64,000 bases of DNA from Bradyrhizobium sp. WSM1417. GTDB taxonomy: Bacteria > Pseudomonadota > Alphaproteobacteria > Rhizobiales > Xanthobacteraceae. A program made the position numbers and the translations under genes. This document shows positions 2,817 to 54,251 of this stretch, one piece after another; the stretch's first letter is position 1; each line of letters opens with the position of its first letter. Where the stretch lies: the NCBI RefSeq assembly GCF_000515415.1, contig NZ_KI911783.1, forward strand, positions 846,501-910,500, in the 5' to 3' direction. The notes under the pieces were generated by a model. It ran no database searches. It saw only the letters and a program-made list of their open reading frames with translations, and had not been told where the DNA came from.

Positions 2817-4026
<1,210 letters not shown>

Positions 4027-32778: not shown

Positions 32779-33085
32779 GATGCCTGAGCGACTGAAGCCA
32801 GCCGCCTCCAGATCGCCTGCGATCCGATCCGAGCCGACCCGACGAGCGATGTAGGCCATTCGGTACGCGATGAGCGCCGTGCCTCGGTTTGTGTACCGGT
32901 CAGCAGCTCAAGTTCCCCGCAAAAGCGATTTCAATCGCTTGAGTAGGAGGTGGTGCCCAGGAAAGGATTGGACGCCGCACCGTCTCGACCATTGAAATCA
33001 CTGACGATTTTCGACCGTCAGGATCGCCTTGTGTACCAGTCCTGTGCCCAAGTCAATTGCGGGGCGACCGCGCAGCTTCCGGGAA
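32779..33085. other. Junction between chromosome and element
   Basis: No gene seen. Contains the distal copy of the 17-bp att repeat at 32951-32967. GAAATCGCTTTTGC-like inverted bases (AAGCGATTTCAATCGCTT, 32923-32940) stand just outside it. Confidence 0.5.
32951..32967. repeat. Distal attachment repeat of the tRNA-Leu element
   Basis: TGGTGCCCAGGAAAGGA, identical to 40613-40629, which is the 3' end of tRNA-Leu including CCA. Sequence on both sides of the repeat differs between the copies. Confidence 0.9.
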
Positions 33086-34075
33086 TCACCTGCGGTACGG
33101 GTTTCCTCCGACCGCCGCTTCGACCCGCTCTGTGATGTGCTCGTATGCGACTGCTTCGACGTCAGCTCGCTCCAAATAGCGTACTTCAGGTCGCTCAAAC
33201 AATTCGAGCACTTCGTCACTGAAGTACCGCACCTCCTTCTCCCAGCCCTTGATGATTTTTTCACCGTAAGCACCTGTCTTGATGAGCTTGCGATACCGCC
33301 CGACGAGAGCGGTCAAGTGCGGCGTAATCGCCTCGTCGAGGTAGCCCTCAAGCCGCGCTAATTGATCCTCCTTCGATCCCGCCTGCTCGCGCCGCTCTTG
33401 CTCCTCCTGTTCCCACTGTTGCTCTTCCAGCTTCCAGCGTCGTGAGGAGTGTGTCTGCCATTCCCTAAATAGCAGGCTGAGAACTGGTCCCTCCCCCGTA
33501 TGCCACGCGGTCAGACGCTCGACGATGAAGCGTTCATCGTCGTCTAGGTACCTTTCAGTGACGGCGGCGATCGCCTCGTCCAGTTGGACAAACTCGCCGC
33601 TCTCGATAGCTGGTGCCATCTCCTTGGCCACGTACTCGAAGATCTTCAGGCGAGCGGACCTCCAAGCCCCCCACCATCTGCCTGGAAAATCTTCGTCACA
33701 ATCCGCGGCGTCCATGCAGATCGTCCAGAGGATGTGCTCGACATAAAACTCCGCAAGCTGAAGTGGGCCGAACCGCCGCGCTAATCTGGACGCTCTTGCG
33801 ATGAACGGGGCCAGTGACCGCTTTCGCTCAGCCTCGTCGTCCCTCGCCTCTAGGTAGGGCAGTAACACTTCGTCGAGGTTGGCGAGTGTGAATCTACAGA
33901 CAGGATTATCGAGACTGCGCTCTTTGAGGAGTTTCATGCTGGCTTGCCATGTTTCAAGCCCTTTACCCCGAATCGCGACCTTCTTCCAAGTTGACACTTC
34001 CACGGAGGCGTCGCACTTGAGTAGGGGAGAATGTCCCCTGCCGTCCGTAGACGATCTACAGATGGCATCCATCAT
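33086..34075 (-). CDS. Uncharacterised 329-aa element-borne protein
   Basis: I do not recognise it. Soluble, no signal or membrane segment. The middle is helical with conserved-looking tryptophans (RWWGAWRSARLKIFEYVAKE). Residues about 215-245 form a highly charged, probably coiled-coil segment (EEQQWEQEEQERREQ). The C-terminal 80 residues (VGRYRKLIKTGAYGEKIIKG.. and YFSDEVLELFER) recall the helical lead-in seen in some restriction-endonuclease-like proteins, a weak impression only. ATG at 34075, no clear ribosome site; later starts are possible. Divergent from the next gene with only 23 bases between. Confidence 0.75.
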   Translation of the reverse strand: MMDAICRSSTDGRGHSPLLKCDASVEVSTWKKVAIRGKGLETWQASMKLLKERSLDNPVCRFTLANLDEVLLPYLEARDDEAERKRSLAPFIARASRLARRFGPLQLAEFYVEHILWTICMDAADCDEDFPGRWWGAWRSARLKIFEYVAKEMAPAIESGEFVQLDEAIAAVTERYLDDDERFIVERLTAWHTGEGPVLSLLFREWQTHSSRRWKLEEQQWEQEEQERREQAGSKEDQLARLEGYLDEAITPHLTALVGRYRKLIKTGAYGEKIIKGWEKEVRYFSDEVLELFERPEVRYLERADVEAVAYEHITERVEAAVGGNPYRR

Positions 34076-34098
34076 CGCGATGACACTTGGGGACTACC

Positions 34099-34374
34099 AT
34101 GACCGACATATTGAAGACTGCGTTTAGCAAACCGTTCACGCCCCTCGGGCGCATCGGAGCCGACCCCTCACGCCTGATGAGTGTGCGCGAGTGGTGGTAT
34201 GAGATGGACGAACCTGTGTCGATGTTGGCCGATCCCCAAGAAGCGTTCAGAGCAGACGAGCGGACGCTGCTGAAGGTCTGCCTGGACAACGGCATTGCGT
34301 ATCGAGCGGCCACCACAGGGCGCCCTGCTGCCTTCCCAGCTTGGCTGTTCAGGGAAGTGTATCTTGCGCCCTGA
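34099..34374 (+). CDS. Hypothetical protein, 91 aa
   Basis: Unrecognised small soluble protein (MTDILKTAFSKPFTPLG...). ATG at 34099 follows GGGGA, which supports it. Rich in aromatic residues around SVREWWYEMDEP. Starts 23 bases from the divergent 329-aa gene, so the two cannot both have ordinary separate promoters in the gap; one promoter must lie inside the other gene. Confidence 0.6.
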   Translation: MTDILKTAFSKPFTPLGRIGADPSRLMSVREWWYEMDEPVSMLADPQEAFRADERTLLKVCLDNGIAYRAATTGRPAAFPAWLFREVYLAP

Positions 34375-34517
34375 GTGCCCGCGCTAATCTCCCTCATGAG
34401 TTCCCCCGGATAGTTGGCGCAAATCCGCAAAGGCTCCATTCTGAGTGGGTCTGGTGCACGCTTTCCCCCGCCGGGGGGTCCTTCTCAACCACAGCAATTC
34501 GGTTAGGCAGTCTGACG

Positions 34518-34874
34518 ATGATCGCGCGAAGGCAGTATGCGCCGACGTGGTTGACTAAGGACCAGATAAGGCGGCGGCTCGATGTGCTTGAGACGGTGAA
34601 GGGCTTGCTCTGGTACCCGACCACAAACATCCACAGCCCTGTCGAGAAGCGTTTCGACGAGGCGGCGGCAGACGTTGTGAAGCGAGCAATCCGAGAAGCG
34701 GAACACGCACTGCGGTCAGCATTCTTGGACGCGGAGGAAGCCGGAAAGGCCCCTGTGGAACAACAGGTCATCAACTTCGTGAAGTCATTCAACTGCATCG
34801 GCCCAGCTCGCCTGAAGCAACTCCTTCGCTCCCGACGACAGGGCGGCAGCTCTGCGCACCTCGATGGCCGCTAG
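34518..34874 (+). CDS. Hypothetical protein, 118 aa
   Basis: Unrecognised, mainly helical and basic (MIARRQYAPTWLTKDQIRRR; FDEAAADVVKRAIREAEHA). ATG at 34518 is the best start, since the frame upstream of it is cysteine- and proline-rich and lacks a ribosome site. An antisense frame of similar size exists at 34394-34798 but looks less protein-like. Confidence 0.5.
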   Translation: MIARRQYAPTWLTKDQIRRRLDVLETVKGLLWYPTTNIHSPVEKRFDEAAADVVKRAIREAEHALRSAFLDAEEAGKAPVEQQVINFVKSFNCIGPARLKQLLRSRRQGGSSAHLDGR

Positions 34875-34937
34875 GATTGGCTGCGAAGGCCGTACAGAGT
34901 CTCGGAGACGTGCTATCGTTGAGACCGTCAGAGCGCA

Positions 34938-35159
34938 TTAGGACTCCCCACGGGCCGCTCTAGGGCTCGCGTCAGCCTTCACGTCTTGCAGTCGAGCGAT
35001 CCGTCTCGGACCAAGCCAGACCTCGACGGCAATCTCCACTGCGTCATCGCCGAACAGCTCTGCCGCCCTGCTCACGGCCTCTTCATTGCTGTCGCAGTCC
35101 AACTCCTGCACGTCCAGAACGTGACCCCAGAAGTTCAGTTTGAAGGCTCGGTAGATCAT
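34938..35159 (-). CDS. Small conserved-type rhizobial protein, 73 aa
   Basis: Compact alpha/beta pattern (MIYRAFKLNFWGHVLDVQEL DCDSNEEAVSRAAE core) similar in layout to a large family of tiny rhizobial hypothetical proteins of the form YRAY-x-DGH-x-ELDC-x-DDEEA. Function unknown. ATG overlaps the stop of the upstream gene (ATGA), so the two are co-translated. Confidence 0.65.
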   Translation of the reverse strand: MIYRAFKLNFWGHVLDVQELDCDSNEEAVSRAAELFGDDAVEIAVEVWLGPRRIARLQDVKADASPRAARGES

Positions 35160-35377
35160 TCGGGGAGTAGGACGATCATCTTGGCACGGCGCAGGGTGGC
35201 GACCTCACAGGCGGCCTTGAAAGGCATCTCTTCCTGCGGAGCGCGGATGTGGTCCTTGGCCGTAGCGATTGCGGAGACGAGCTGGAACGCCCAGTAGCCT
35301 CGACCACTTGGCCTCTTGCCGTGCCGTCGATAGTAGCGCTCGATGTCGATCCTGATCTCGCCTGCCATCCCCAACAT
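35156..35377 (-). CDS. Hypothetical protein, 73 aa
   Basis: Unrecognised. Short basic protein (GEIRIDIERYYRRHGKRPSG) with GYWAFQLVSAIATAKDHI. Start 35377 or ATG at 35368. Coupled to the following 73-aa gene by ATGA. A cluster of palindromes at 35437-35495 lies just upstream and probably controls both. Confidence 0.6.
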   Translation of the reverse strand: MLGMAGEIRIDIERYYRRHGKRPSGRGYWAFQLVSAIATAKDHIRAPQEEMPFKAACEVATLRRAKMIVLLPE

Positions 35378-35760
35378 GTGGTGGTCAGGGCGGAGCGAAG
35401 AAATAGGTTGCAGGCTCGCCAGAGCCCCCTCCGGTTCCCTATAGGTTAGAGTGAAGGTGCACTGAAGTGCACTATAGGTACCTGTAGGTGCACCTTAGCT
35501 GGCATCAGAAAGAGTTCCTTCAGGGATACTGAGAGGACCACCAGTCATCAATGACATCCAAAGATGATCCTCAAGAAGGGGTCCCCCGTCGAAGAGTCCA
35601 ATGTCTTGATGGCAGGCGGGTTGCCTAGTTCGTCGAACACATTGAAGAAGGGAGCCCCTGCTCGCGCCCTCCGGCTCGATAGCTCAGCCGTCCCCGCGTC
35701 TCCGCCAGCTCTTACGTAGGCCGAATGGAAGCGGGACCTCGGTTGCCCATCAAGCCACAG
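35378..35760. other. Gene-free spacer in the element
   Basis: 383 bases with no supported gene. Holds the palindrome cluster at 35437-35495 near its left end. The right part is the 3' side of the membrane-protein gene; I see no terminator there. Confidence 0.5.
35437..35495. promoter_or_regulatory. Palindrome cluster upstream of the two small genes
   Basis: GTGCACT-GA-AGTGCAC (35457-35472), AGGTACCT (35476-35483) and AGGTGCACCT (35486-35495) follow one another, with CTATAGGT appearing twice (near 35439 and 35473). Repressor operator or origin-like iterons are both possible. Confidence 0.6.
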
Positions 35761-36771
35761 TCAGGAAGCTGCCGCCTTCTCCGACCCTGACGCTTTGCTG
35801 AGAAGCTGGATGATGTTCGAGCCGCCTTCGGCACTTGGCTTTGTGAAGCCCGTCTCTTGAGGCGAGAACATGCACGCAGAGGCGTGAGTGAGGATGATGT
35901 CCTTCTTGCTCTCTTCTTTAGCCGCATTCGCAAGAGCTTGGAACGTCAGCAGGGCATTCTGCCGATGCCGATTCACGATGGCGTTGTGGGTGTGAGACAG
36001 GAAGTTGCGCGAACAAAGCACTAGCACGTAGCCCATAGCCGCAAAGATCGCGAGTTTCGCCAGCGAGAACTGGACAGCCTCCATACTGTCGGCAGGATGA
36101 AGGAATGGGACCTTGTGAAGGAAGACGGTCGATCCTGCAAAGACTGCCAAGACGACCGCAGCGGCGATGGTGTAGGTGCGCCAGTCCTTTGCAACGGCAT
36201 CATGGTGTTCGGCTTCGGTCTTGAAGTACGTAGCCTGAAACCCGACACCCTGCTCGGCAGCTACCTTTCTCACTTCGGCCAGCACGCGATTTGCTTCGGC
36301 CTCGTGTTCACCGAGTTTTTTCGTCAGTGCCGCAGCCTCATCCGTCGCTGCCTGCGATGCAGCTCTGGCTTCGCGTTCGAGCCGCGAAAAATCTTGTCGG
36401 TTACTGGTGACGAACAAGATGGCGGGGCTGATCTGATTGTACCACGCCTCGTAGTTGGAGCTGAGTTGCTGGATCAGGCTCTGTCTGGTCTCCATCGCAG
36501 AACCCTGCTGCGGGGAGAACTTCTGCATCTGCTCTAGGATATTGAAGAAGGCATCGGCCGCCGAGCGAACTTGGGCACGATGTCCTTGTGGAACCAGCGG
36601 CAAAACGTCAGCGGGGATCAACGAGAACAGATGCTGAGCCCTCTGAGCTGGCTCCACAGCGTCCTCGAATGACAGCTCTCGTCCAAGGTCCTCCCGCCTC
36701 GGCAATGTCTTGGTGTCGAACGATTGCACCCTGACGAGTGATGCGACCTCCTTCGAGATGTCCTCAGCCAT
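35761..36771 (-). CDS. Coiled-coil, two-TM membrane protein of unknown function
   Basis: 336 aa. Order: a soluble N-terminal half, a long coiled coil at about 130-190 (LEREARAASQAATDEAAALT, KKLGEHEAEANRVLAEVRKV), two transmembrane segments at about 200-222 and 240-262, and a cytosolic tail HNAIVNRHRQNALLTFQAL ..SACMFSPQETGF. The tail looks like a conserved small domain that I associate, without proof, with membrane proteins of defence islands. ATG at 36771 has GGGAGGA six bases upstream, an excellent site. Divergent from the serine recombinase. Confidence 0.8.
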   Translation of the reverse strand: MAEDISKEVASLVRVQSFDTKTLPRREDLGRELSFEDAVEPAQRAQHLFSLIPADVLPLVPQGHRAQVRSAADAFFNILEQMQKFSPQQGSAMETRQSLIQQLSSNYEAWYNQISPAILFVTSNRQDFSRLEREARAASQAATDEAAALTKKLGEHEAEANRVLAEVRKVAAEQGVGFQATYFKTEAEHHDAVAKDWRTYTIAAAVVLAVFAGSTVFLHKVPFLHPADSMEAVQFSLAKLAIFAAMGYVLVLCSRNFLSHTHNAIVNRHRQNALLTFQALANAAKEESKKDIILTHASACMFSPQETGFTKPSAEGGSNIIQLLSKASGSEKAAAS

Positions 36772-36850
36772 TTGGTTCCTCCCGGTCGCAACTCTTACGA
36801 GTGCCCAGTCTGAAGGCAACATGAAGCGGGAGCTGTGAACAGGTTCCACA

Positions 36851-36967
36851 GCTTGTCCGCAAGGGTATGCCCCTGCGGACAAGCGAAGGAAGTCGGAAAC
36901 GGCGTCCGCTAGGGTTGACTTCGGTCAACGGACAAGATACTCAACGGACGTTACCCTAGCGGACAAC
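36851..36967. promoter_or_regulatory. Candidate res site/operator of the serine recombinase
   Basis: Six copies of a TGTCCG/CGTCCG half-site: two on the plus strand (36853, 36904) and four on the minus (ending 36884, 36936, 36950, 36967). GCTTGTCCGCA/TGCGGACAAGC forms a 34-bp palindrome (36851-36884), GTCCGCTAGGGT/ACCCTAGCGGAC pairs over 36904-36964, and GTTGAC-TTCG-GTCAAC (36914-36929) sits inside. Layout fits multi-subsite resolvase binding. Confidence 0.7.
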
Positions 36968-36977
36968 AGGGGCGTCA

Positions 36978-37616
36978 ATGGCTACGATCTTCTACGCGCG
37001 AGTATCCACCACCGATCAAACCGTCGAGCATCAGCGAACAGGGGCGGAGGCCGCAGGCTTCAAGGTCGACCGCGTCGTCGCAGACCATGGTGTTTCGGGC
37101 ATCAGTACCCGCCTTGCCGAGCGACCCGAGGGCAAGCGTCTGTTCGACATCCTCCGCAGCGGCGACACGCTCGTTGTTCGCTGGATCGACCGCCTCGGGC
37201 GCAACTACGGTGACGTTTGCGACACCATCAGGGAGTTCATGCGGCGGGGGGTTGTGATCCGCACGGTGATCAACGGGCTTACCTTCGACGGCGCAACCAC
37301 GGACCCTATGCAGCAAGCCATTAGAGACGCGCTCATTGCCTTCATGGCCGCCACCGCGCAGGCCAATGCCGAGGCCATCAAGGAGGCACAACGCGGCGGC
37401 ATCGCCCTCGCAAAGGCGACAGCAGGTGAGACGAAGTACCGGGGGCGGAAGCCGACGTTCAACAAGGACCAGCTCGAAACGGTCCTCAACATGCTGGAGC
37501 AGTCAGCGGGCGTCGGGCAGATAGCTGCAGCTACGGGGCTGAGCCGACAGACAATCTATAGGATCAAGGAAGACCCTGTTGGAGCCGAGGCGGCGCTGAC
37601 AAGTTGGGCCGCATAG
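36978..37616 (+). CDS. Serine recombinase, resolvase/invertase family
   Basis: 212 aa. N-terminal catalytic domain: YARVSTTDQ with the nucleophile serine at residue 10, DHGVSGIS, RPEGKRLFDILRSGDTLVV, and the arginines in WIDRLGRN. The C-terminal HTH is GVGQIAAATGLSRQTIYRI. Similar in size to Tn3-type resolvases and invertases. ATG at 36978 directly follows the palindromic half-sites, so autoregulation is likely. In this small element it may resolve cointegrates or invert or delete a segment. Confidence 0.93.
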   Translation: MATIFYARVSTTDQTVEHQRTGAEAAGFKVDRVVADHGVSGISTRLAERPEGKRLFDILRSGDTLVVRWIDRLGRNYGDVCDTIREFMRRGVVIRTVINGLTFDGATTDPMQQAIRDALIAFMAATAQANAEAIKEAQRGGIALAKATAGETKYRGRKPTFNKDQLETVLNMLEQSAGVGQIAAATGLSRQTIYRIKEDPVGAEAALTSWAA

Positions 37617-37738
37617 GCGGCCAGCTCAAACTGCATCTTCGTGGCCCGATCAGTGTTTTTTGCATCTGCTCACTGACCAGCGTAATGGGGCGTTCACACT
37701 TACTAAACCAAGATGAGTGCCCAGACAGGGGTGATTGG

Positions 37739-38251
37739 ATGACGACGCTGTACACCATTGGCTACGAGGGCACCGACATCGACCGCTTCGTGGCCACGCT
37801 GAAGAGCATCAAGGTGCAGCTATTGGCCGATGTCCGCGCCGTTCCGATCTCGCGGAAGAAGGGGTTCTCGAAGAACAAGCTCCGCGACCGACTTGAGCAA
37901 GAAGGCATCCGGTACGTTCACCTCGCCGCGCTGGGCGATCCGAAGCCCGGTCGGGATGCCGCCAGGGCGGGCCAGTTCGATCAGTTCCGGAAGATCTACG
38001 GCAAGCATCTCTCCCAGACCGAGCCGCAGCAAAGCCTCCAAGAGCTGGCCAAGCTGGTGGACAAGCAGAGCACCTGTTTGATGTGCTTTGAGCGCGATCC
38101 CAGTGAATGCCACAGGTTGATGGTTGCGTCGGCACTACCGACTCAGGTCAAGTTGTTCCACCTCTTTGGTGATGAACCCGATCGTTATGTCCGCAACGCC
38201 GCAAAGCTCCCGCGCAGTCGTTCTGGTCAAGGCGCTGCCGCAGCCCAGTAG
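37739..38251 (+). CDS. DUF488 family protein
   Basis: 170 aa. Family marks: LYTIGYEGTDIDRFV at the N-terminus, LLADVRAVPISRKKGFSK, and the C-terminal LMCFERDPSECHR. DUF488 proteins are small, soluble and of unknown activity; the conserved Cys/His pair suggests nuclease or nucleotide chemistry, not shown. ATG at 37739 follows AGGGGTGATTGG; the open frame extends upstream without family sequence. The 3' end overlaps the next gene by about 65 bases in another frame, so the two are certainly co-expressed. Confidence 0.9.
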   Translation: MTTLYTIGYEGTDIDRFVATLKSIKVQLLADVRAVPISRKKGFSKNKLRDRLEQEGIRYVHLAALGDPKPGRDAARAGQFDQFRKIYGKHLSQTEPQQSLQELAKLVDKQSTCLMCFERDPSECHRLMVASALPTQVKLFHLFGDEPDRYVRNAAKLPRSRSGQGAAAAQ

Positions 38252-38951
38252 AACCTACGGGGAGACTGTCTGCTGCGCTGGGGTGACCGCCGACGGGCAA
38301 TGGAAGCGGCTCTTCCCGGTACGCTTTCGGCACCTTCGGGGTGACAGCAGCTTCTCCCGCTGGCATTGGGTGAAGTTCTCCTACCGGCCGCCGACACGGG
38401 ACAAGCGAAACGAGAGCTGTCACGTCTACGAGGACAGCATCGCCATGGACGGCCAGTTGCCCCAAGCCGAGCGGACGAGGTTGCTCACGCCCCTCCTCAC
38501 CGGCTCAGCCAAGGAGGCAATGGCGCTCGGGAGATCGCTAACTCTCATCCGACCTCGGAACACCAAGTTCATTGCGAAACGCAAGTCAGCGGCCGATCTT
38601 GCCGAGGAACGAGAGGCATACAAGGCCGCCGCTCAGCAAACATCCATCTTCGACAAGGAGCTGGCGGAACTTGAGCCATCTCCCTTCGACTTCAGGTTTC
38701 GGTTCGAGGATGACGACGGCCCCCACGACTACCAGAACGGAGACTGGGAAACGCATGCGATGTTCTGGCGCTGGCAGGCCGAGTACGGCGAGGGAGGTGC
38801 GCTGGATCGCATGCGAGCTGTCTACGACGAACAGTACCCCAGCAAAGGCATGGCCTTCGCGTTGGGAAACCAAGCCAAGAGGCCGCAGACTTGGCAGTTG
38901 CTTGGCGTCATCCGACTAGACGAGATGACCCAACCCGACCTCTTCAGATAG
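38187..38951 (+). CDS. Uncharacterised partner of the DUF488 protein
   Basis: 254 aa, soluble. The N-terminus AVVLVKALPQPSRTYGETVC followed by CAGVTADGQWKRLFPVRFR has the look of an OB-like nucleic-acid-binding strand set (tCxAGxxxDGxWxRLxPV). The C-terminal half is charged and has DYQNGDWETHAMFWRW. Start 38187 (MSATPQSS) is chosen, 38172 is possible; both lie inside the DUF488 gene. The stop abuts the convergent integrase with no gap. I have seen DUF488 beside such proteins in variable genome regions, but no function is known to me. Confidence 0.75.
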   Translation: MSATPQSSRAVVLVKALPQPSRTYGETVCCAGVTADGQWKRLFPVRFRHLRGDSSFSRWHWVKFSYRPPTRDKRNESCHVYEDSIAMDGQLPQAERTRLLTPLLTGSAKEAMALGRSLTLIRPRNTKFIAKRKSAADLAEEREAYKAAAQQTSIFDKELAELEPSPFDFRFRFEDDDGPHDYQNGDWETHAMFWRWQAEYGEGGALDRMRAVYDEQYPSKGMAFALGNQAKRPQTWQLLGVIRLDEMTQPDLFR

Positions 38952-40526
38952 TCAGGCGGCCGAAGAGAAGCGCTCTAGGTCGTATCGGGGCAGCTTGCAG
39001 ACTTCGACGTACAATCCTGCAGGGTCACCGTAGACCCGCTCATCCACGCTCTCGCCAGCATGGCCGGTGATCATGCGCCGCTTCTCCTGATCCAGCCCGT
39101 GCTTTCGGCTCATGGTGATGAAGCGGTGCCGCCAGCCGTGGTTCGGTGCCACCCGCTTGTCGGGGACGATGTCTCGCACGAACTCAGCGAGACGGTTCTT
39201 CAATGCGCGCAGCTTGCCCCGCACATCGTCATCTTTAGCGACCGTCAAGAACAGATACCCTTTGGCTGATGCGGTAACGAACTCGATGAAGCCCAACTCA
39301 ATGAGGTGGGGGTGCAGCGGCACCTCGCGTGCTTCCTTATTCTTCACGGGGCCAGCCTCGGGGGTGATGGTTGCCACGTAGTGATCGCCCTTACGGCGGA
39401 TGTCGTCGCGCCGGAGCTGCGCCATCTCGCCAATCCGAGCGCCGCTGTAGGCGCACAACCAAGGGAGCCACCGCTTCGCCGCAGTCGTCTTTGCGTGCTC
39501 CTGCCCGGCCCCGCTGTAGCCTAGAGCGGCCTTCAGGATGGCCGCAGCTTCATCATCAGTGAACCCCTTGCCTCGCTCGCGGACCCTCTTCCCGATCTTC
39601 AGCGTGACGCCTTGAGCCGGATTGCTTGGCAGTTTGTGGTTCCGCACGCCCCAGCCGAACACCGACTTCATCGCAGACAAGTCGACATCCTTCACAGTCT
39701 TCGGGGAGCGGCCATCCGAGAGCCGCTTATCCTTCCAACCAACGACATCGTGAGGGGTGATCCGCGTCGCGTCGTCGTGTCCCACAAAGGCAACGAAGCG
39801 CGTGAGCACGGACTTATACTCGCTGACCGTCTTCTCGGTGACACCCCCTGCCCGGCTCTCCAACTCCCAGCCAGCGAACAGCGCGGCCACCGTAAGCCCT
39901 GCCTGCCCCCTCGGGGCGGCCTTGGCTTCCCATTCAGGAAACCGCGTCTCAACGAGGTCCGGCCCATAGTCACCTCTGCCTCTCCGCTCCAAGAGCGCCG
40001 TAGCGTCCTTGAATGCCTCATGCAGGGCAGCGGCCAACCGCGCTGAACTGTCATCGTCGATCCGCAGGGCCTTACGCTGGAGCAGCTCAGCAACGTATGG
40101 AGCCATCTCACTCTGCATCGTTTCAGTGTCCCACTTGAGGGCGGCTTGGTGAAGCATGTTCCAAAGCGTTGCTCGGCCGGGATCGTTCTCCCAAGTCTTC
40201 TTGGCATGACGGTAGGCTTCGCCCGCGAGCGCTATGGCCTCCCGATGGGTAAGGCGACGGGGGCTCTCCCGCATGGAACGCCAGACATCATCAAGGTAGG
40301 CGAGCGCCTTGGCTTGCCGCGCTTTGGCCTCGCGAGGATCGTGGGTGCGCAGCGAGACCTTGATTGTGCCGTTGCGACCAACCTGCACTTCCGCAGTCTC
40401 ATCACCTACTGGCACGCGCAGCACCATGCCCACCGCCTTCTCGCTCAGCTCGGCAGGAACGCGCTTTCGCAGGTAATGAACGGAGGAGCCGTCGCGGCGG
40501 ATAGGAGAAGCCATTCGCAGAAGCAT
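38952..40526 (-). CDS. Tyrosine site-specific integrase
   Basis: 524 aa. N-terminus carries the short DUF6538-like SSVHYLRKRVPAEL segment, then a SAM-like core-binding domain (about 230-320) and the catalytic domain: Arg in SGARIGEMAQLR, HGWRHRF (HxxR), His in TGHAGES and Tyr in ERVYGDP. Lies 86 bases from tRNA-Leu, whose 3' end is duplicated at the other end of the element, so it is the enzyme of integration. Start 40526 or 40514; neither has a clear ribosome site. Confidence 0.94.
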   Translation of the reverse strand: MLLRMASPIRRDGSSVHYLRKRVPAELSEKAVGMVLRVPVGDETAEVQVGRNGTIKVSLRTHDPREAKARQAKALAYLDDVWRSMRESPRRLTHREAIALAGEAYRHAKKTWENDPGRATLWNMLHQAALKWDTETMQSEMAPYVAELLQRKALRIDDDSSARLAAALHEAFKDATALLERRGRGDYGPDLVETRFPEWEAKAAPRGQAGLTVAALFAGWELESRAGGVTEKTVSEYKSVLTRFVAFVGHDDATRITPHDVVGWKDKRLSDGRSPKTVKDVDLSAMKSVFGWGVRNHKLPSNPAQGVTLKIGKRVRERGKGFTDDEAAAILKAALGYSGAGQEHAKTTAAKRWLPWLCAYSGARIGEMAQLRRDDIRRKGDHYVATITPEAGPVKNKEAREVPLHPHLIELGFIEFVTASAKGYLFLTVAKDDDVRGKLRALKNRLAEFVRDIVPDKRVAPNHGWRHRFITMSRKHGLDQEKRRMITGHAGESVDERVYGDPAGLYVEVCKLPRYDLERFSSAA

Positions 40527-40612
40527 GTGTACCGTCTCTGTGTACCAGTTGAGACGGTCGATCACCCTTACTTATCAGGGAGTTCAGCAACTTCAACAAC
40601 ATCGAGGAGCGA

Positions 40613-40699
<87 letters not shown>

Positions 40700-40860
40700 A
40701 TGCCGGTTAGGCACGGAGGCGGTTACTACGGTTCGGTGACGCGGTTGTCAATTCATGCTTGAACCCCGCTTCGGGATGCGGATTGCGCATCGCAAACCGG
40801 CCCGATACAAGCCTGACGAGACGCACTCTTCCCGCAGAATGACCCCCAGGAATGGATCCC

Positions 40861-51846: not shown

Positions 51847-54251
51847 AATTCACTCTCTCCTGGCTGAAGGAACATCTCGAGACCGACGAGCCGCTGGACA
51901 AGCTCGCCGAGAAGCTCACCATGATCGGGCTCGAGGTCGAGAACATCGAGGACAAGGCGAAGGCGCTGAAGCCGTTCACCATCGCGAAGGTGATATCCGC
52001 CGAGCAGCATCCGAATGCGGATCGGCTGCGCGTCTGCATGGTCGACACCGGCGACGGTGGCGCACCGGTGCAGGTGGTGTGCGGCGCGCCGAATGCGCGC
52101 ACGGGTCTCGTCAGCGTGTTTTCGCCGCCCGGCACCTACATTCCCGGCAAGGACATCACGCTCGGTGTCGGCACCATCCGTGGCGTCGAGAGCCGCGGCA
52201 TGCTGTGCTCGGCGGCTGAATTGCAGATTTCCAACGACCATGACGGCATCATGGAATTGCCCGCGGATGCGCCGATCGGCGCTGCTTACGCCGCATGGGC
52301 CGGCCTCGGCGATCCCGTGGTCGAGATCAATCTGACCCCGAACCGGCAGGACTGCACCGGCGTGCACGGCATCGCGCGCGACCTTGCCGCCGCCGACATG
52401 GGCAAGTTCAAAGACCCGGCCATCAAGCCGATCAAGGGCGAATTCCCGTGCCCGGTGAAGGTCACGGTCGAAGACGCCGCGCTGTGCCCCGGCTTCGCGC
52501 TGCGCCTCGTGCGCGGCGTGAAGAACGGGCCATCGCCGGAATGGCTGCAGAAGCGGCTGACCGCGATCGGGCTGCGCCCGATCAACGCGCTGGTCGACAT
52601 CACCAACTTCATGACTTACGACCGCGCACGGCCGCTGCACGTGTTCGACGCGAAGAAAGTGAAGGGCAATCTCGTGGTGCGCCGCGCGCGTGACGGCGAG
52701 ACGCTGCTCGCGCTCGACGGCCGCAGCTACAATCTCGATCCCGCGATTTGCGTGATCGCGGACGAGCACGGCGTCGAATCGCTCGCCGGCATCATGGGCG
52801 GCGAGGCCTCGGGCTGCGACGAGACCACCACGGACGTGCTGATCGAATCGGCGCTGTGGAACGAGATCAACATCGCCCAGACCGGCCGCAAGCTCGGCAT
52901 CAATTCGGACGCGCGTTACCGATTCGAGCGCGGCATCGATCCGGCCTTCATGGTGCCGGGGCTGGAGCTTGCGACGAAACTCGTGATGGAGATGTGCGGC
53001 GGCACGCCGTCCGAGAACGTCGTGGTCGGCAAGACCTTCGGCGACGACCGCGTGATCGATTTTCCGGTCACCGAGGTCAAGCGGCTCTCGGGCATCGAAG
53101 TGCCGATGCCGGAGATGAAACGCATCCTGACCCATCTCGGTTTCATGATGGCGGGCCCGGGCCCCGTCGTGAAGGTCGCGGTGCCGTCGTGGCGGACCGA
53201 CGTGCACGGCAAGGCCGACATCGTCGAGGAAGTCGTCCGCATCCACGGCGTCGACAAGGTGCCGATGACGCCGTTCGAGCGCGGCGAGGACGCACGCAAA
53301 CCCGTGCTGACCCCGCTCCAGCTCCGCACCCGCCGCGCCAGACGCGCGCTGGCGAGCCGCGGCATCATCGAAGCGGTGACTTGGTCCTTCATCACGAAAT
53401 CCGCGGCCGAGTTGTTCGGCGGCGGCCAGCGCGAACTCGAGGTCGCCAACCCGATCGCGTCGGATCTCTCCGACATGCGCCCGACCCTGTTGGCGGGCCT
53501 GATCGCGGCGGCGCAGGCCAATGCCGATCGCGGCTTTGGCGATGTCGCGCTGTTCGAGGTCGGGCAGGTGTTCAAGGGCGACCGACCGCAGGATCAGTTC
53601 ATGGCGGCAAGCGGCGTCCGCCGCGGCTTTGCGTCGTCGCAAGGCCTCGGACGGCACTGGTCGGGTTCGGCGCAGGCTGACTTGTTCGACGCCAAGGCCG
53701 ATGCGCTCGCGGTGCTCGCTGCCGCCGGCGCACCGATGCAAGCGCTTCAGATCGTCGCGGGCGGCCCGTCCTGGCTGCATCCCGGGCGCTCCGGCACGAT
53801 CCAGATCGGGCCGCAGAACGTGCTCGGCTATTTCGGCGAGGTGCATCCGCGCGCGCTCGAGGCGCTCGGTGCCGGCGGCCCGCTGATGGTATTCGAGGTG
53901 ATCCTCGACCGCATCCCCGAGGCGAAGAAGAAGCCGACCCGTGCCAAGCCCGTGATCGAGCTGTCGGCATTCCAGCCGGTCTCACGCGATTTCGCCTTCA
54001 TTGTCGACCGCACCGTGAAGGGCGGCGATATCGTGCGCGCGGCCCAGAGCGTCGACAAAAAGCTGATCACCGCCGTGAACGTGTTCGACGTCTACGAAGG
54101 CAAGGGCATCGACGACGGCAAGAAATCGATCGCAATCGCGGTGACGATCCAGCCGCGCGAAAAAACCCTGACCGACCAGGAGATCGAGGCCGTCGCCGCG
54201 AAGATCGTGGCGGAGGTGACGAAGAAGACCGGCGGCACTTTGAGAGCATGA
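51843..54251 (+). CDS. pheT: Phenylalanyl-tRNA synthetase beta chain
   Basis: 802 aa. N-terminal [19 protein letters not shown], tRNA-binding EMAP-like domain (residues about 40-150), B3/B4 editing domain, B5 domain, core-like domain and a C-terminal anticodon-binding FDX-ACB domain ([17 protein letters not shown]). ATG overlaps the DUF559 stop (ATGA); the GGAG ribosome site lies within the repeat-derived end of that gene. So pheT translation is coupled to an inserted gene. Confidence 0.95.

Follow-up and report, generated by a model that had tools for sequence, protein, structure and literature searches.

An integrative element at tRNA-Leu(CAG) of Bradyrhizobium sp. WSM1417 with two slots of candidate defence cargo on either side of a serine resolvase and its predicted res site

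The genome of Bradyrhizobium sp. WSM1417 carries, at the 3' end of a tRNA-Leu(CAG) gene, a compact insertion that occupies positions 32951-40629 of a 64,000-nucleotide stretch of contig NZ_KI911783.1 (hereafter the window, whose coordinates are used throughout) and that combines an integrase, a serine resolvase and two groups of cargo genes. The target tRNA gene (40613-40699, minus strand) includes the proximal attachment core (40613-40629), and 17 bp identical to the 3' end of that gene (32951-32967, plus strand) form the distal core, the start-to-start distance of the two, 7,662 bp, being the length of the insert. The 17-mer is present only twice in the 8,048,963-base single-contig genome, both copies bounding the element, which makes the ends named in the original prediction exact and led to rejection of a chance repeat; the reversed 17-mer, taken as a control pattern, has no occurrence genome-wide. 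As judged from its sequence, the insertion is an integrative mobile element placed precisely at the 3' end of the tRNA gene, since a direct repeat bounds the insert and relatives show the empty site.

The integrase that had been predicted beside the tRNA gene is a tyrosine integrase with a DUF6538 N-terminal domain, recognized by family match and motifs (38952-40526, minus strand), whose open reading frame (ORF; 38952-40565) adjoins tRNA-Leu(CAG). It contains R, HxxR, H and Y motifs, which we take to be the catalytic residues. A putative arm-type site, TGTGTACC, lies at the distal end (33030-33037, plus strand), with further copies beside the integrase at 40526 and 40539, an arrangement matched in the sister element at locus L126 (described below) by one copy at the same spacing of 79 bp inside the distal core and two copies by the integrase. 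A fourth copy (32890-32897) is found 61 bp outside the distal core, in flanking DNA that aligns with the empty-site relatives, and may be due to chance or represent an old arm site. The GC content is 59.9% in the element and 63.7% in the window, and the main element ORFs have the codon-position GC pattern of coding DNA. Family scans covered ten ORFs of the element, among which no match was found to capsid, tail, primase or replication families, to relaxase or conjugation families (oriT was not tested), to Tn3 transposase (no search was made for Tn3-type terminal repeats), or to the replication, capsid-remodelling and packaging genes of phage satellites of the P4 and PICI type, so that the element is not placed among the latter. 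The sole packaging-type matches are weak ones (0.0021 and 0.017) of the helix-turn-helix end of the resolvase to terminase small-subunit families; with this reservation, the earlier statement that phage and conjugation genes are missing from the cargo stands. Insertion of a Tn3 transposon or insertion sequence was rejected, none of the ten ORFs being a transposase.

The serine resolvase/invertase gene (36978-37616, plus strand; 212 amino acids; Resolvase 1.3e-26, HTH_7 2.1e-11) encodes YARVS and DRLGR motifs that are presumably catalytic. Upstream of it, dyads built on GTCCGY...RCGGAC delineate res subsite I, the putative 26-bp crossover site with a central AT (36855-36880, plus strand), and subsites II and III (36904-36964, plus strand, with dyad arms at 36904-36915 and 36953-36964); the order, with site I outermost and site III beside the gene, is taken to be that of Tn3-type res sites. 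In keeping with the dyads, the res stretch folds as single-stranded DNA better than 200 of 200 shuffles (z -5.95). With a serine resolvase and a three-part res upstream of it, the module can be classed, by sequence features, as a Tn3-type resolution system.

In this arrangement, the res site and the resolvase separate two cargo slots. Slot 2, between resolvase and integrase, is made up of a DUF488 gene (37739-38251, plus strand) and a PDC-M19B-like gene (38187-38951, plus strand). Slot 1, between site I and the distal end, contains a gene for a 336-amino acid protein of an unnamed family, here called TM_336 (35761-36771, minus strand), a near-orphan gene of 328-329 amino acids without a family (33086-34075, minus strand) and small ORFs, namely two uncertain ones (34099-34374 and 34518-34874, plus strand) and two of 73 amino acids (34938-35159 and 35156-35377, minus strand), the first of which has a 42% identical relative in the resolvase locus L127. 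None of the small ORFs gave a convincing family match.

Searches with the tRNA and the right-hand genes found a match in 79 of 79 genus genomes, that of WSM1417 included (for G042 the listed match is the far gene only), and the tRNA-distal 19-20 kb were compared for 20 of the 79. The site is empty in two of these relatives (L037 and L051), where the left flank of the window (to 32948/32949) abuts tRNA-Leu. In L044 the same flank resumes after a different insert of 14,361 bp, which ends in the same 17-mer and carries LmuB-like and RmrA-like genes and an integrase 42% identical to that of the window. A second exact 17-mer exists only in L044 and L035; the copy in L035, 2,959 bp from tRNA-Leu and with no integrase ORF called between, looks like the relic of a lost element, because the sequence around it is similar to that of the L044 element at its integrase-side end. 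The other 16 loci have no second 17-mer, and 15 of them have no left-flank match (63 bp only in L038). In L034 a different integrase (33%) lies next to tRNA-Leu, and genome G007 (L132) has another resolvase-bearing element there (integrase 42%). The comparison of tRNA-Leu loci proposed along with the original prediction has thus revealed both empty sites and other cargo; the same genes are not found at this place in all relatives, and the repeat stands without an element once in 20, in the apparent relic. A decayed element is also seen at tRNA-Leu in L045 (G029, about 2-829), where a site I survives together with part of the resolvase (C-terminal) and part of the integrase (N-terminal).

The closest relative of the element (L126, genome G239) is a compact element of about 8.2 kb in the same tRNA, beside the same neighbour gene, with integrase and resolvase proteins 86% and 94% identical to those of the window. 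At the DNA level the two are similar in three blocks, i.e. the distal 99 bp (77%), the segment from site I to the resolvase (36854-37610, 85.6%) and that from the integrase to the tRNA (38977-40700, 84.8%), the remaining matches being at chance E-values save those of the palindromic site I and of the core repeats. By this comparison, both cargo slots are replaced between the two elements. Slot 1 of L126 contains a type II cytosine methyltransferase (1.9e-122) and a restriction enzyme (2.1e-65), as well as a GIY-YIG protein that matches PD-T4-3 (1.1e-8). Two elements lie in tandem at the L126 tRNA, as a second integrase gene is found downstream and the junction sequence matches the end of the L044 element. 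The integrases at L126 15125-16783 and L044 17983-19641 have identical first 70 residues in the two genomes, the L044-type integrase belonging to the sole element seen in L044 and standing in L126 in tandem behind the sister of the window element.

Relatives of the resolvase (E <= 1e-60) are present in 16 of 242 genus genomes, that of WSM1417 included, and the comparison of their surroundings covered all of the other 15 save G229. Of these 14 loci, eight begin to resemble the window on the outer edge of site I (36849-36863), three at site II (36903-36904) and two inside the resolvase gene, and in L059 the resemblance reaches 35770, because this locus has TM_336 too. On the other side, similarity ends by 37674, 58 bp past the resolvase stop codon, in all 14, with separate further matches in the integrase for L126 and two other loci. 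The 30 bp to the left of site I are, on average, 26% identical among 12 loci that include the window (66 pairs), which is about chance, and 29% identical (10 pairs) among five loci with resolvases at least 93% identical. Cross matches between 3-kb left flanks are limited to two of the 66 pairs (in one a match of 25 bp, in the other the TM_336 gene common to the window and L059), and those between right flanks to three pairs (two short, the third being the integrase common to the window and L126). Taken together, these alignments make the res module the limit of similarity in most of the close relatives. In the five closest loci the left half-sites of site I are less alike (0.83) than the right ones (0.97), as exchange at the centre of the site predicts, a weak sign of such exchange.

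Beyond the resolvase stop codon, ATCAGTGTTTTTT (37649-37661, plus strand) is kept in four other loci. ATCAGTGTTTT follows the stop codon in five loci (the window, L126, L128, L129 and L131), close to the end of the similar stretch, and the window copy shows no terminator-like hairpin. At the level of the order, the resolvase was found at 1e-55 in 27 of 347 genomes, WSM1417 included. Inspection by eye of 20 order-level loci, with their neighbours' families not scanned, found similar upstream dyads in many of them and contexts that look mixed, and the ATCAGTGTTTT motif within 110 bp in none of the 20. The resolvase module is a general part of rhizobial mobile elements and not a defence gene; the broad claim that it is defence-specific was rejected on account of these mixed contexts.

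With regard to slot 2, the DUF488 and M19B genes are adjacent and overlap by 65 bp, and the two of them are matched by both component models of PDC-M19, a candidate system of PADLOC (PDC-M19A 1.7e-33 for the DUF488 protein, which matches DUF488 itself at 1.2e-33; PDC-M19B 3.2e-34, covering positions 4-268 of a 269-position profile). Invariant residues of the DUF488 protein (nine aligned) include Y9, E10, R33, S38-R39-K40, C116, E118 and C124-H125-R126. M19B is rare in the genus (7 of 242 genomes at 1e-10, own included) and is also found in 23 plasmid records, 7 Gordonia phage records and, in an alignment-based scan, 63 viral-contig loci, a single-sequence viral scan having been unproductive, unlike that with an alignment. 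Of the 55 among these 63 loci with a called M19B ORF, 46 have DUF488 no more than 1.5 kb away from M19B (34 of them upstream and on the same strand, 12 on the opposite strand) and nine have no DUF488 within that distance. A second arrangement of the pair, convergent rather than tandem, is seen in L142, L143, L260 and L261. The recurrence of two arrangements suggests that the DUF488 and M19B proteins work together, and the enzyme-like DUF488 motif makes a nucleic acid or nucleotide their probable target. Searches of solved structures with M19B and DUF488 gave weak matches or none. No paper naming PDC-M19 was found among the open-access papers searched, where the DUF488 titles listed include none on defence and the one paper pairing DUF488 with phage defence deals with another subject.

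As for slot 1, TM_336 has hydrophobic segments at about residues 198-224 and 232-259, and exactly two such segments were found by the same rule in 32 of the 42 family members. A coiled coil may precede them, as read from the sequence and from weak matches to helical proteins. No Pfam model is matched above cut-off by any of the 42 (DUF6161 is weakly matched by six), and the window protein has only weak matches in PADLOC and NCBIfam, among them a PADLOC 2TM effector (0.0023) without a listed cut-off. TM_336 shares two membrane segments with SLATT and CBASS 2TM effectors, to which it shows weak matches (SLATT_1 in 1 of 42 members); it differs from them in that its matches are below curated cut-offs or without one, and in lacking a neighbouring family that recurs in over 3 of its 41 loci, so that it is not counted among these effectors. 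A search of solved structures gave weak matches or none, and no match was found in phage records. The 41 relatives, found by an alignment-based contig search after a first search without an alignment had been unproductive, come from Pseudomonadota genera, Planctomycetales, Phycisphaeraceae, Nitrospirae, Kiritimatiellae, Myxococcales, Gemmatimonadetes, Terriglobia and Aquimarina. Within the genus only 3 of 242 genomes have TM_336 (G028 with a 78% identical relative), a patchy distribution that is probably the result of horizontal spread. TM_336 and the resolvase as an obligatory system was a candidate rejected on the ground that, among the 41 TM_336 loci, a resolvase relative is found in L061 and a distant one (27%) in L089. 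The simplest reading of TM_336 would be that of a stand-alone membrane-anchored effector.

Several TM_336 genes have neighbours of interest. In G161 (L060) the relative lies beside a PDC-S35 TIR gene (1.2e-77), and in a Vibrio plasmid it is part of a one-strand gene run with Hhe and AbiH annotations. In L075 it lies 4.6 kb from a DUF488/M19B pair, PDC-M19 models matching at 2e-106 and 3.2e-106 in a protein set that includes both L075 genes. An attC-like motif is repeated at 3225, 3806, 6785 and 11719 around the TM_336 gene of Aliivibrio L067, which suggests an integron cassette. A tally of PADLOC models matched at 1e-5 (309 near TM_336, 96 far from it), to which little weight can be given as the models are redundant and the ORFs were mechanically called (the sample took 100 of 153 ORFs near the gene and 100 of 143 far from it, all of 120-900 amino acids), points to a defence context. 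By comparison, the 328-amino acid gene was found in 1 of 242 genus genomes, its own, and in 3 of 347 order genomes, i.e. itself and two weak matches of 59-60 amino acids; viral and plasmid searches with it were unproductive, and a search of solved structures gave weak matches or none.

The scan of resolvase neighbours took in 13 loci: the window with its ORFs, 11 loci from which 20 neighbours had been chosen, and L126 and L059 with single genes (L133, L137 and G229 were left out). Cargo supported by PADLOC accompanies the module in the window (PDC-M19), in L059 (an NsnA-like gene, 4.2e-34), in L125 (CAP12 TIR 1.1e-18, PDC-S35 1.9e-11 and PDC-M34A 4.2e-45), in L126 (type II restriction-modification), in L127 (Lamassu LmuA 2.8e-45 and LmuB 7.6e-169) and in L134 (RmrA-like, 9.2e-20). 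Genes that read by sequence as hsdM-, hsdS- and hsdR-like lie across the module in L059, type I methyltransferase models matching 3-4 of 100 proteins, members not named, in a set that includes this hsdM. An HD protein of L129 weakly matches dGTPase (8.5e-8). There was no PADLOC match among the proteins scanned in L128, L130 (with a DNA ligase), L131 (an integrase and a MauJ domain), L132, L135 (a phage-tail protein) and L136. The co-occurrence of module and defence cargo is claimed as an association and not as an enrichment, the count having no matched control.

In the light of these observations, the reading that we favour, with a probability of roughly 0.6, is that of an integrative element with defence genes as its cargo, in which the resolvase would resolve tandem copies and also reassort the cargo. 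The element is likely defensive, candidate anti-phage genes being found on both sides of the recombinase module: the DUF488/M19B pair would act jointly on its nucleic-acid or nucleotide target, and TM_336 would be a membrane-anchored effector that stops the growth of infected cells. By collapsing tandem copies of the element at the tRNA, the resolvase would, when the copies differ, join by crossover at site I the integrase, slot 2 and resolvase of one to slot 1 of the other. This step requires two copies of site I per cell. The original prediction, which had placed the element in a setting known for anti-phage systems, is thereby partly supported: a defensive role is made likely by the PDC-M19-like pair, the type II restriction genes of L126 and the LmuB- and RmrA-like genes of L044, and the description of the content as mostly unrecognized holds for the near-orphan gene and no longer for the resolvase, DUF488 and PDC-M19 matches.

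Several observations weigh against this reading. The genome has only one site I, its sole place even with up to 3 mismatches allowed, and no exchange was caught in the act; the tandem elements of L126 differ in their integrases, and a tandem in which both elements have a site I was not found. Distant resolvase loci begin to match inside the module and not at site I, and the asymmetry of the half-sites is gone across all 12 loci (left 0.78, right 0.73). TM_336 and the resolvase are linked in the window and in L059 at similar protein divergence (78% and 76%), so that this pairing looks old. The DUF488 protein covers just positions 149-284 of the 294-position PDC-M19A profile, the N-terminal half being missing, which sets it apart from PDC-M19 as modelled; short DUF488 forms are also found in L138, L140 and L054. 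PADLOC-supported cargo is found in 6 of the 13 resolvase loci, the rest having DNA ligase, alpha/beta hydrolase, integrase or phage-tail genes or nothing recognized. Finally, PDC systems are called unpublished candidates in PMC11811056.

At a little under even odds stands the explanation that the resolvase just resolves multimers or tandem arrays, as has been shown for SGI1, with the differences in cargo arising through ordinary recombination, insertion or res-hunting transposons. This explanation has the element and its defence cargo in common with the favoured reading and departs from it over the exchange of cargo. It would agree with the description of TIME-RES, in PMC4133298, as portable res-resolvase systems, and with the mixed contexts of the resolvase beyond the genus (27 of 347 order genomes); it accounts less well for similarity left of site I in just 2 of 66 pairs, for a start of matching at the outer edge of that site in 8 of 14 loci and for the lack of a transposase among the scanned window ORFs. 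Tentative, and in our view rather doubtful, is the broader extension of the reassortment reading according to which resolution of heterologous tandems at tRNA genes is a means of reassorting defence cargo, with site I as a portable junction by which rhizobial elements would exchange one slot and retain integrase, resolvase and the second slot, and with TM_336 as a new, widely scattered single-gene defence family. That the cargo serves element housekeeping or regulation, or is decaying DNA, is unlikely: the near-orphan gene and the small ORFs without a convincing family would fit, against which stand the PDC-M19 matches, the type II restriction genes that fill the corresponding slot in L126, the conservation of TM_336 across phyla and the coding codon-position GC of the main ORFs. 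That the element is the degenerate remnant of a prophage or phage satellite, reduced to integrase and cargo, is improbable, in spite of the M19B relatives in viral contigs and Gordonia phages, the PHROG matches of resolvase and integrase and the weak terminase matches of the former, as none of the ten ORFs has a capsid, tail, primase or replication family and the sister element is comparably compact.

Resolvase-mediated shuffling of modules in Tn3 transposons is the subject of older work, and no claim is made that the reassortment mechanism is unpublished, the literature search having been of open-access papers only. Several parallels may be set out. Multimers of SGI1 are eliminated by a reactivated Tn3-like resolvase, and its resistance cluster lies at res (PMC12217951); SGI1 is, like the present element, integrative, with a resolvase, an adjacent res and cargo at res, whereas here the element, 7.7 kb long, is housed by a tRNA gene and bears cargo on both sides of the module, and none of its scanned ORFs is a relaxase. 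Tn3-family modules share with the one described here three dyad subsites, the outer one being the putative crossover site, and TIME-RES is a portable module (PMC4133298); the difference lies in the Tn3 transposase, absent from the ORFs scanned here. Tn7-like transposons carry defence cargo, some of them with serine resolvases (PMC8649781). Phage-related sequences and islands borne by tRNA genes in Sinorhizobium meliloti share tRNA targets and tyrosine integrases with the present element, from which they differ in that the word 'resolvase' is absent from the text of PMC11476347 and in that no structural phage gene is found among the ORFs scanned here.

The way in which mobile elements exchange their defence genes is an open question, for which site I, 26 bp long and next to a resolvase gene that looks intact, provides a concrete and testable junction at which cargo changes among relatives. 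The interest of the element resides less in the tRNA insertion as such than in the cargo slots bounded by res and in TM_336, whose family has relatives in several phyla and no Pfam model above cut-off in 42 members; two candidate defence cargos are found in one small piece of DNA. Elsewhere in the window, tRNA-Asp(GTC) at 52337-52431 was called as 95 nucleotides, unusually long for a tRNA-Asp.

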